Assembly: GCA_011389855.1 (NCBI GenBank)
Contig: JAABTM010000017.1
Location: 1-35,947 of the forward strand
From: Desulfobacteraceae bacterium
GTDB lineage: Bacteria > Desulfobacterota > Desulfobacteria > Desulfobacterales > JAABSP01
Reading direction: 5' to 3'
DNA: 35,947 nucleotides
Made by a program: the position numbers and the translations under genes. The notes beneath the pieces are model-generated. The model had not been told where the DNA came from. It was given only the letters and a program-made list of their open reading frames with translations, and searched no databases. Positions 19,624-24,093 of the stretch are shown here, in pieces. Numbering within the stretch: the first letter of the stretch is position 1; each line of letters begins with the position of its first letter.

Positions 19624-19743
19624 ATGTTAAGCCAAAAGATGACCGACGCACTCAACTACCAGATCAATAAGGTGAATTACGGGAATGAATATCCCAACAA
19701 GGCAAATTCAAGGGATCGCTCACCGCTGGCCGCGCGGAAGTGA
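19624..19743 (+). pseudogene. 5' remnant of a ferritin gene
   Basis: After AAGGAG at good distance, the frame reads MLSQKMTDALNYQINK, the exact start pattern of bacterial non-heme ferritins (MLSxKMxxALNxQIN). After 16 codons the similarity is lost, and the reading runs through junk to a TGA at 19741-19743 that lies inside the dispersed hairpin element starting at 19732. None of the iron-binding helices is present. It may still be translated as a 39-residue peptide, but it cannot store iron. Confidence 0.7.
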
Positions 19744-19795
19744 ACTCCCACGCTATTTTACCATGCCCTTACAGGACATTTTTAAGCAATTCCAG
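19732..19795 (-). repeat. Half copy of the dispersed hairpin element
   Basis: These 64 bases match the reverse complement of 24030-24093 with few differences, including the stretch ACAGGACATTTTTAAGCAAT. The other half with its inverted arm is missing here. A degenerate core GGGAATGAATATCCC at 19681-19695 may be a further piece. It lies between the ferritin remnant and the first SPFH gene. Confidence 0.85.
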
Positions 19796-20857: not shown

Positions 20858-21760
20858 ATGGGATCTAACTTGACTGCATTCATCACCCTGGCCGTGATCG
20901 GTTTCGCGACCATCCCGATCTGCCTCTTTATCGCCCGCCGTCTGGGATTGTACATCACGGTGGCCGAAGCCGAAGCGAGCGTCTACACCCTGTTCGGAAA
21001 AGTGCTGGGGACCATCGATACGCCGGGACTCCACTTTCCGATCCTCCGGTTCGGCCCCAGGGCGCTGATGCTGCCGTTTTTCGGGAAGCGCTATACCGTC
21101 AACACCGCTCTGCGGCAGAACTACCTCCGGAGCCAGATGGTCAATTCCGAAGAGGGAACGCCCATGGGGGTGGGCATCTGGTACGAGATGCGGGTGACCG
21201 ACCCGGTCTCCTATCTGTTCAAAAACGCCAACCCCGAAGGGTCGCTGGAGGCCAACGTGGCCAGTTCGACCATCTCCGTCCTGTCCAACCTGGAGATGGA
21301 AAAGATGCTGGAAAACCGCCACGGCCTGAGCCGCACGGTCCGATCCACAGTCTCGCCTTTGTCGGAAAAATGGGGATATCGTCTCGGCTCGGTCTATATC
21401 CGGAAAGTGGCCTTTACGGATGCCTCCATGGTGGAAAACATCACCGAAAAGGTGGTGAAACGACTCATCCAGGTCACCTCCGCCATGAAACAGGACGGCG
21501 AAAACCGCGTCGGCCTGATCAAAAGCCAGACCGCCAACAAGGTCTCCCAGAAAATGGCCGAAGCCGGCTCCGTCCGTCCCGAGGTGGTGGGATCGACGTT
21601 GAACAGCATCGCCAAAAAGGACGTGGAAGTCTTGGAAGCCGTTCAGACGGTCATGGAGACCGAAAAACTGCTGGAATCAGGGGCCTCGGTGGAGGTGATT
21701 CCGGACGGGACGTCGGTGTTGGTGCAGTTGGGTCACCGATTCGCAAACCATACAGCATAA
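20858..21760 (+). CDS. SPFH/Band 7 membrane protein (second of a pair)
   Basis: This 300-residue protein has an N-terminal membrane segment (FITLAVIGFATIPICLFIA) and an SPFH domain (YITVAEAEASVYTLFGKVLG, then TPGLHFPI and YTVNTALRQNYLRSQMVNS). The middle holds GVGIWYEMRVTDPVSYLF, a core SPFH strand pair, and the C-terminal helical region has VEVLEAVQTVMETEKLLE. AAAGGGGAA lies before the ATG. With the preceding gene it probably forms a hetero-oligomer at the inner membrane. The 3' end overlaps the convergent CcbP-like gene by 28 bp. Confidence 0.85.
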   Translation: MGSNLTAFITLAVIGFATIPICLFIARRLGLYITVAEAEASVYTLFGKVLGTIDTPGLHFPILRFGPRALMLPFFGKRYTVNTALRQNYLRSQMVNSEEGTPMGVGIWYEMRVTDPVSYLFKNANPEGSLEANVASSTISVLSNLEMEKMLENRHGLSRTVRSTVSPLSEKWGYRLGSVYIRKVAFTDASMVENITEKVVKRLIQVTSAMKQDGENRVGLIKSQTANKVSQKMAEAGSVRPEVVGSTLNSIAKKDVEVLEAVQTVMETEKLLESGASVEVIPDGTSVLVQLGHRFANHTA

Positions 21761-22389
21761 TCGTTCACTGGCTGATAATTTGATGATGTCTCGTCGATGA
21801 CTTCCAAATCACATAGCGGGAATACATATTTCCGACGCCCTTTGCGCAGCGATACCAGAATGCCATAGGGATCTTCACTTCCCTCTATGCCATGCACCTT
21901 TACCCGATCATCGGCTTGCAATGGGCCCCGTTCTTGAAATTCCGATACTTCCGCTTCGAACGGAAACTCCAGCATCTGCTGAAGATAGGCATTCCACGCT
22001 TCAAAGGCGGACGAGTCATCCCCGGCTTGGGACAAAATCGCCTGGATGCGCTTGCCTTCCTCACCCAAAAAGCTCCATCTATGTTTTCTTTCAAGATGTT
22101 GAATCGCCTCTTCGACATCCTCTACACTATCCCTGGGACTTACGAGTTCAACATCTGTCGGAGAAAGGTATATTTGCGACCAATCCAGTCCTTTCTCCTC
22201 ACATTGATCGATTATTTCAGCCGGCATGTTTTTGAGAGTGAGGCTGTCCCACTTTATGCAGATCGTATCGTAATTTTTATCCACCTCGGAGATCCTCCCT
22301 TGCCAACCACCGATGTTTATATTCAAGTCAGGATCTTCAACATTTGGTTTTACAACGACCGCATCTCCTGCTTCGATTTTATTTTGCAT
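21733..22389 (-). CDS. CcbP-like calcium-binding-family protein with N-terminal SH3-like part
   Basis: This is a 218-residue acidic protein. The C-terminal third (about 125-215) fits the family of the cyanobacterial calcium-binding protein CcbP: LEFPFEAEVSEFQERGPLQ, DDRVKVHGIEG, and a final FPLCDLEVIDE followed by NDYAVWF. The N-terminal part (1-75) begins as a small beta-barrel, AGDAVVVKPNV ... WQGRISEVD, like a hypervariable SH3-type domain. The function outside cyanobacteria is unknown. It is the last of four minus-strand genes, 41 bp after an AbiEii-like nucleotidyltransferase, and overlaps the convergent SPFH gene by 28 bp. Confidence 0.65.
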   Translation of the reverse strand: MQNKIEAGDAVVVKPNVEDPDLNINIGGWQGRISEVDKNYDTICIKWDSLTLKNMPAEIIDQCEEKGLDWSQIYLSPTDVELVSPRDSVEDVEEAIQHLERKHRWSFLGEEGKRIQAILSQAGDDSSAFEAWNAYLQQMLEFPFEAEVSEFQERGPLQADDRVKVHGIEGSEDPYGILVSLRKGRRKYVFPLCDLEVIDETSSNYQPVNDYAVWFANR

Positions 22390-22430
22390 TATTCACCTCT
22401 TTCATTTACGGTGGCGGAATCCCTGTCAAC

Positions 22431-23006
22431 TCAAGGCTGATCCGAAGCCCCGCTCGTCAGAACTTTTTCCAATTTTGTTATAATTTCAGGTGATTCTTTT
22501 AGCTCGCACAAGGGCGTCAACTGCTCGATGATGTAGTCCCTGTTGAGCTTATGCGACTGTTTCATGGCGATGCTCTCCACGTCGCCCCAATCTTTCGGCC
22601 GGTCGGCAAAGGCCTTGAGAACGATGAGATCCTCCGCGGAACATGTTATCAGAGGGCAGTCGGAAGAAAAAAGAAAAGGCGTGGCGTTTCGTATCATTTC
22701 TTCCTCGAAGGGCAAACCGGAGAGAGAAATATCAATCGCAACGCCGTTTGAAGAGAAAAGCAGCAACACTCTGTTGTCGAGGGCAAAGGTGATCGGGTCG
22801 TCGATTCTGCTTTTATACTGGTTTAACAGTTGTTTTACGTATGCCTCCTCATTTCCGAATCCGCACATGAGACAAAGATCGATATCCTGTGTCATCCTGA
22901 CTTCGCCCCATCGGATAACGGCCAATCCGCCAATAAAGCAGAACGGCCACTTTTGGGCTTCCAATGTCTGCTGGATTTCCTTTGCAGCCTGGAATAACCC
23001 GTTCAT
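22431..23006 (-). CDS. AbiEii-like nucleotidyltransferase
   Basis: This 191-residue protein has the minimal polymerase-beta nucleotidyltransferase fold of AbiEii/AbiGii and related toxins: FIGGLAVIRWGEVRMTQDID with Gly26-Gly27, D41 and D43, and a third acidic residue D92 in VAIDISL. The following block AEDLIVLKAFADRPKDWGDV is the usual helix of this family. Such enzymes add nucleotides to tRNA or protein; as toxins they stop translation. It overlaps the preceding small gene by four bases. The antitoxin is probably the 85-residue neighbour or the second transferase-like protein. Confidence 0.82.
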   Translation of the reverse strand: MNGLFQAAKEIQQTLEAQKWPFCFIGGLAVIRWGEVRMTQDIDLCLMCGFGNEEAYVKQLLNQYKSRIDDPITFALDNRVLLLFSSNGVAIDISLSGLPFEEEMIRNATPFLFSSDCPLITCSAEDLIVLKAFADRPKDWGDVESIAMKQSHKLNRDYIIEQLTPLCELKESPEIITKLEKVLTSGASDQP

Positions 23007-23260
23007 GATTGACCACCTTTATCTGGTGTTTTCGGTTGTTTCATTCTCATAAACAGACGCTGTTGCTCAACAAGGCCGCTGGATAAACGGACTTCGCAAT
23101 TATCGCAGGCATATTGCAGCATTTCGTCCAGAACTTTCCGCTTCTTTTCATAATAATCCTTTGAACGCAGCTCTTCGGCTTTTAGTTTTTGTAGCGATAC
23201 CGCTGCTTTTTGCCATGTTTTGACCCATCTGAGACTTTGTTTTTGTCTATCCATCGTCAT
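23003..23260 (-). CDS. Small helical protein between two nucleotidyltransferase genes
   Basis: This 85-residue basic, strongly helical protein has the start SLRWVKTWQKAAVSLQKLKA and then EELRSKDYYEKKRKVLDEML. I do not know a family name, but short proteins of the form W-x-x-TWxxA...L..I+..ELR are regularly found upstream of nucleotidyltransferase genes. It is linked by 4-bp overlaps to both neighbours, so the three are translated together in fixed proportion. An antitoxin or adaptor role for one or both transferases is the simplest guess. Confidence 0.7.
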   Translation of the reverse strand: MTMDRQKQSLRWVKTWQKAAVSLQKLKAEELRSKDYYEKKRKVLDEMLQYACDNCEVRLSSGLVEQQRLFMRMKQPKTPDKGGQS

Positions 23261-23886
23261 TTATATTTCTTTCTCCTGTGCGCCATCGGGTGCCCAACTT
23301 CCCGTAATATTTGCTCCAGTTTTACTCTGATCGGCGCGATGTTTCGATCGACGATCTCCCGCAGTTTTTGAATGTCGACAAAATCATATTCAAGTAAACT
23401 CTTGGCATCGTCTTCGTCTTTTCTTTCAAAAGTTGATATTTTCATGGCGATCAAGTGTTCGACTGAAACGACATAAAGCTCCGCTTCACCGAGGTTGATC
23501 TTTTCTGTCGCGGAATCGATCGCTTCTTCGAACAACTTGCTCAAATCGCCTTCATCAACGGAGTATCGGTCAATAAAATCGACGTTGATATTGTCTGTCT
23601 CACCGTGGACGTTTATGCCTCCAATCATCAACTCTCTGATATTGTAGCTCAGATCAGATAAATGCCTTATGACTTTTTGCCTGTCTGCTTTCTTTATGGC
23701 GGCATCCAGATCTTTCGTGAACGCATGACCCGCCGGATCGGGCAACCAGTACCATACCGCCAGTCTGCCGATCAAAACGCATTTGATTTGTAACTCGCTC
23801 AGTACTTTCGTTGCAAAAACGGCGCTTTCTTTCGGATCGAATGTCGGCAATTCCAAACCGTTTTTCTTCCTGCTTCTATCGCTCAT
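23257..23886 (-). CDS. Divergent nucleotidyltransferase-fold protein
   Basis: This 209-residue protein has the same fold as its operon neighbour but differs much in sequence: CVLIGRLAVWYWLPDPAGHA then FTKDLDAAI, so the usual Gly-Gly is Gly40-Arg41, while D59 and D61 are kept, and a third acidic residue appears in INVDFID (D103/D106). The later block VEHLIAMKISTFERKDEDDA fits the family helix. It is the first gene of the four-gene operon. The loss of the second glycine in the nucleotide loop suggests altered or absent catalysis; it may regulate or substitute the other transferase. Confidence 0.7.
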   Translation of the reverse strand: MSDRSRKKNGLELPTFDPKESAVFATKVLSELQIKCVLIGRLAVWYWLPDPAGHAFTKDLDAAIKKADRQKVIRHLSDLSYNIRELMIGGINVHGETDNINVDFIDRYSVDEGDLSKLFEEAIDSATEKINLGEAELYVVSVEHLIAMKISTFERKDEDDAKSLLEYDFVDIQKLREIVDRNIAPIRVKLEQILREVGHPMAHRRKKYK

Positions 23887-23984: not shown

Positions 23985-24093
23985 GCGCGGGAATGAATTC
24001 CCACGCTATTATTCGTCGTCCCTACGGGACTGGAATTGCTTAAAAATGTCCTGTAGGGACATCACAAAATAGCGTGGGAGTTTACTCCCGCGC
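23985..24093. mobile_element. MITE-like dispersed hairpin element, full copy
   Basis: This 109-bp element has 26-bp terminal inverted repeats (23985-24010 and 24068-24093) with four differences; each arm is itself a small palindrome (GGGAATGAATTCCC type). Inside lies a second inverted pair, GTCCCTAC ... GTAGGGAC. A half copy is at 19732-19795. It carries no gene. The right end includes the lipA stop codon and the last codons of the gene. It resembles a non-autonomous element or a large REP; no transposase of matching ends is in the window. Confidence 0.8.

Follow-up and report, generated by a model that had tools for sequence, protein, structure and literature searches.

Two overlapping genes, here called B and C, form a genuine recurring module in the window, the 35,947-nucleotide stretch of Desulfobacteraceae DNA that was analyzed, and the flanking genes A and D are unrelated neighbors of this pair, not components. 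B-C is probably a two-gene toxin–antitoxin module of the MenAT/AbiE kind, with C as the toxin and B as the antitoxin. In a preliminary description, A to D had been presented as one operon encoding two unlike nucleotidyltransferases (NTases), a small helical protein, and a CcbP-like protein. All four genes were found on the minus strand where that description had placed them (Table 1), with ATGA overlaps between A and B and between B and C, and with 41 bp between C and D; the 3′ end of D overlaps a convergent slipin-like gene by 28 bp. The two unlike NTases are A and C, which both match PF19502 (DUF6036) above its cut-off, and the CcbP-like protein is D, whose match to PF11535 is C-terminal. 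C carries the motif set reported for it (FIGGLAV, TQDID, and AID). The Gly-Arg loop (LIGRLAVW) and DxD motif (TKDLD) of A were also borne out, but A has the third Asp too (INVDFID) and hence a full acidic triad. Comparison with a sister species gave dN/dS values of approximately 0.21, 0.11, and 0.22 for A, B, and C, respectively, and this purifying selection indicates that the three are real genes. Promoter and terminator scans produced matches no more numerous than in shuffled sequences. The source genome is a draft of 569 contigs.

Table 1 Coordinates and predicted products of the four genes in the window
Gene	Coordinates	Strand	Length (aa)	Product	Profile match
A	23257..23886	-	209	Solitary-type DUF6036 nucleotidyltransferase (NTase), Gly-Arg loop	PF19502, E=6e-7
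B	23003..23260	-	85	Predicted helical antitoxin, motif SGLVEQQxxF	
C	22431..23006	-	191	DUF6036/AbiEii-type NTase, predicted toxin	PF19502 and PF08843, above cut-offs
D	21733..22389	-	218	N-terminal domain of ~105 aa and CcbP domain	PF11535, E=6.5e-20

Homologues of B are patchily distributed: 22 of the 390 genomes searched from the order have one, as do 6 of 297 genomes in a phylum-wide sample. A search of 292 genomes with a C profile placed B directly upstream of C, mostly in an overlapping frame, at all 18 strong C matches. In one genome, B and C are naturally fused in a single ORF of 315 aa (L057 925-1872), which is strong evidence for a functional link. Conserved adjacency, overlapping frames, and patchy distribution are general features of two-gene toxin–antitoxin systems, and the pair has all three. 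No B accompanied the more distant NTases found with the C profile, four of which have another small protein upstream. These four loci (L121-L124) show a second pairing, parallel to B-C, in which a DUF6036-type NTase is accompanied by a small protein (~75 aa, motif RPVDxxGIIKMRR); a relationship of B to these small partners was suspected by eye and had no support from hhalign (E=0.31). Neither B nor C had a match in viral contigs, and C had none in phage records or plasmids. Such absence from plasmids, phages, and viral contigs is unusual for a highly mobile toxin–antitoxin system.

A profile search of the PDB with C returned MenT1 (8an4) as the sole significant match (E=1e-6, residues 20-147). 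C also matches DUF6036 (PF19502, E=4e-7) and, just above the cut-off, AbiEii (PF08843), and all 13 C-family proteins match both models. The residues T39, D41, D43, K131, D139, and D142 are invariant in the C family (13 relatives), and the invariant residues correspond to T39, D41, D43, K137, and D152 of MenT1. The toxicity of MenT1 needs D41, K137, and D152 (PMC10435456), and T39 is its regulatory phosphoacceptor (PMC11375011). Structure prediction of C (two sequences) reached a pLDDT of 37, and because this model failed, the fold is assigned from sequence profiles. Literature searches found no mention of DUF6036.

For B, no family match was obtained in Pfam, NCBIfam, or PADLOC, and its sequence showed no resemblance to known antitoxins. 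B and 23 relatives gave no match to PF18993, the MenA1 family, at E up to 1. Six residues of B (W16, A51, G62, E65, Q67, and F70) are invariant, and its model consists of three helices predicted with low confidence (pLDDT 60). B is best read as a candidate for an undescribed antitoxin family on a MenT-type enzyme. From the homology to MenT1, we infer that C would be toxic through tRNA, extending its 3′ acceptor end with added nucleotides and thereby blocking translation. B, as a small helical protein, would be made just before C from the overlapping reading frames. By analogy, we infer that B may bind C directly and neutralize it, whether by covering the active site or through auto-phosphorylation of Thr39 of C, as driven by MenA1.

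We also examined the neighborhoods of B. Type III CRISPR genes, checked with NCBIfam, lie in or beside 5 of 26 B loci. One locus has Csx20, Cas1, and a weak CARF match (L082); a second has Csm5, the Csx2-type TIGR02221, Cas1, and an array of eight repeats, with C broken (L085); a third has Csx20, TIGR02221, Csm3, Csm4, Csm5, and Cas10, with a Cas6 match below the cut-off (L087); a fourth has Csx20 and TIGR02221 (L095); and the fifth has a type III-E Cas7-11, with an intact B and a truncated C downstream (L089). This association has a P of about 4e-6 against a background of 1%, which is itself an assumption, and a P of 0.05 against the A loci (0/25). At the fifth locus, the Cas7-11 (gRAMP) ORF, open at the contig edge, seems to run into an AAA/PtuA-like ATPase C-terminal domain (L089 658-4545, minus strand; G039:C347). 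Literature searches found no link between Csx20 and a nucleotidyltransferase.

These five loci raise the alternative that B-C is mainly a type III CRISPR defense accessory, an effector or a fail-safe, and that the copy in the window and others like it are displaced. We regard this as rather unlikely: no CRISPR gene is in view at the other 21 B loci, the window included, some of which lie in polysaccharide islands and some beside other toxin–antitoxin genes; L085 and L089, two of the CRISPR-associated loci, have a broken C; and defense islands often hold toxin–antitoxin genes that are independent of the adjoining systems. A broader proposal, which we hold as doubtful to a similar degree, is that B-C is a new NTase toxin–antitoxin type with an undescribed antitoxin family that has been repeatedly recruited into III-A and III-E CRISPR loci, possibly as a tRNA-targeting effector or as a fail-safe released on damage to, or activation of, the CRISPR locus. 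The recurrence beside Csx20/Csx2 and Cas7-11 makes a connection to type III CRISPR immunity open to testing.

The roles of the two partners were assessed from the way in which the pair decays. B is intact at all 26 B loci, whereas C is intact in 15, truncated early, displaced, or deleted in its catalytic region in 6, and absent in 5; this asymmetry of 11 to 0 has a length-weighted P of 0.017, and the number of orphan B genes may be inflated by misassembly of draft genomes. The C-profile search gave 16 strong C loci with an intact C, largely overlapping the 15 above, and no clear case of a C lacking B other than a remnant of 57 aa (L130). Loss of C with retention of B is the pattern expected if C is a toxin that decays ahead of its antitoxin B. 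If the roles were reversed as in type VII HepT-MntA systems, with a toxic B that is nucleotidylated and so inactivated by its antitoxin C, the opposite decay would be predicted. HepT-MntA likewise combines a small protein and an NTase in a single operon, and a HepT toxin gene (NF047751) lies just upstream of one B locus (L092). However, B matches no HEPN or HepT model, and C is AbiEii-like, resembling the toxins MenT1 and AbiEii more than the short MNT antitoxins. The reversed arrangement is thus unlikely, and we retain C as the predicted toxin and B as the predicted antitoxin.

The toxin–antitoxin idea had been put forward for two paired transferases together with a calcium-binding-type protein, and it holds for B and C but not for that larger set. 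A neighborhood search for the order A-B-C-D found the full set in no other genome, and A, B, and C occur together in this genus alone. In the sister species (L002, G084:C321), a spacer of ~60 bp separates A from B-C, the slipin-like gene comes immediately after B-C, and D is absent; the ATGA overlap between A and B is therefore species-specific. Elsewhere, A, B-C, and D lie apart. On this distribution, a four-gene or paired-transferase system was rejected.

Across 390 genomes of the order, A had 25 matches, spread over 14 genomes; four of the matches are in this genome. No match to A was obtained in viral contigs. At its other loci examined, A is solitary, and an all-against-all comparison of the flanking ORFs revealed no recurrent neighbor that could be a partner gene; this genus is the exception. 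A keeps the TxDxD motif, the third Asp, and the Lys and Asp of the catalytic set, which do not vary among 16 aligned sequences. It matches MenT1 weakly (E=0.0024) and is distantly related to C (hhalign E=4e-5). The sister A-B spacer encodes a short peptide, QRATSKPNRNG, that resembles QRATSESNNW, the C-terminal tail of the ORF upstream of A, and this likeness (L002 1-187 and 852-910; L006 3466-3957) suggests that A came to lie next to B through a duplication or an insertion. A REP/REPIN-like palindromic repeat, GGAGTNNACTCCCRCGCTAT, occurs at positions 19734-19756, 23987-24009, and 24069-24091 of the window, including just upstream of A. The genome has 75 copies with up to two mismatches, against 0 in a reversed control, and many form inverted pairs ~79 bp apart.

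Relatives of D were found in 22 of 243 genomes. At the inspected loci, they sit among unrelated genes with no A, B, or C adjoining, and no NTase adjoins the full-length relatives. Over its C-terminal 100 aa, D falls within PF11535, as does CcbP (Alr1010) of Anabaena; D differs in carrying the extra N-terminal domain. D aligns directly with CcbP only weakly (E=0.014), and the alignment loses much of the acidic stretch at the C-terminus of CcbP, so calcium binding by D is only putative. The N-terminal domain also occurs in larger proteins of 365 to 397 aa (L067 1273-2466 and L070 775-1872), in which the D search detected no CcbP domain; it may thus represent a separate domain that lacks a name.

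Tandem unlike NTases are indeed found near B at more than one locus, but they are strings of separate modules. A MenAT1-type pair stands just upstream of B in L048/L092 and L039/L083, where B lacks C. In L048, a PF18993 protein of 67 aa and then an NTase precede B; in L039, a protein 81% identical to that 67-aa protein is likewise followed by an NTase. The scan that detected the MenA1 family in L048 did not detect B, which is a useful control for the non-membership of B. It is very improbable that A and B-C, whether or not D is included, are a combined system in this genus in which A gives a second activity or regulates C. In favor of such a system, A adjoins B-C in the two species examined from this genus, A and C are both under purifying selection, and in some genomes (L083, L092, L093, and L096) B or B-C has other NTases alongside. 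Against it, A is solitary at its other loci; B-C occurs without A in all other genera; the A-B spacing and the presence of D differ between the two species; and the NTases that flank B elsewhere are not A and, in L048 and L039, are paired with a MenA1-type protein of their own.

Among known systems, we compared B-C with AbiE and MenAT1. AbiE (AbiEi-AbiEii), a type IV toxin–antitoxin system, is similar in that C passes the Pfam AbiEii cut-off and all 13 of its relatives match this model. It differs in its two-domain AbiEi antitoxin, which has no counterpart here, the 85-aa B matching no AbiEi (winged-helix) model; moreover, the PADLOC AbiEii models, at ~300 positions, far exceed C in length, and C matches just a segment of them. 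MenAT1 of Mycobacterium tuberculosis (Rv0078B-Rv0078A; PDB 8an4/8an5) shares with B-C a small upstream protein and an NTase of ~190 aa, and C keeps the catalytic Thr, DxD, Lys, and Asp of MenT1. By contrast, the MenAT1 antitoxin belongs to PF18993 (the Rv0078B family), whereas B is outside this family and is a protein of ~85 aa with a conserved SGLVEQQxxF motif. In MenAT1, the toxin adds nucleotides to tRNA acceptor ends, and the antitoxin induces phosphorylation of the toxin at Thr39. Antitoxin partners of MenT-type toxins reportedly come from three unrelated families, at least two of them relying on a common mode of control (PMC11375011). As a putative further antitoxin family on the same enzyme type, B would test the generality of auto-phosphorylation at the active-site Thr, and the natural B-C fusion would be a convenient construct.
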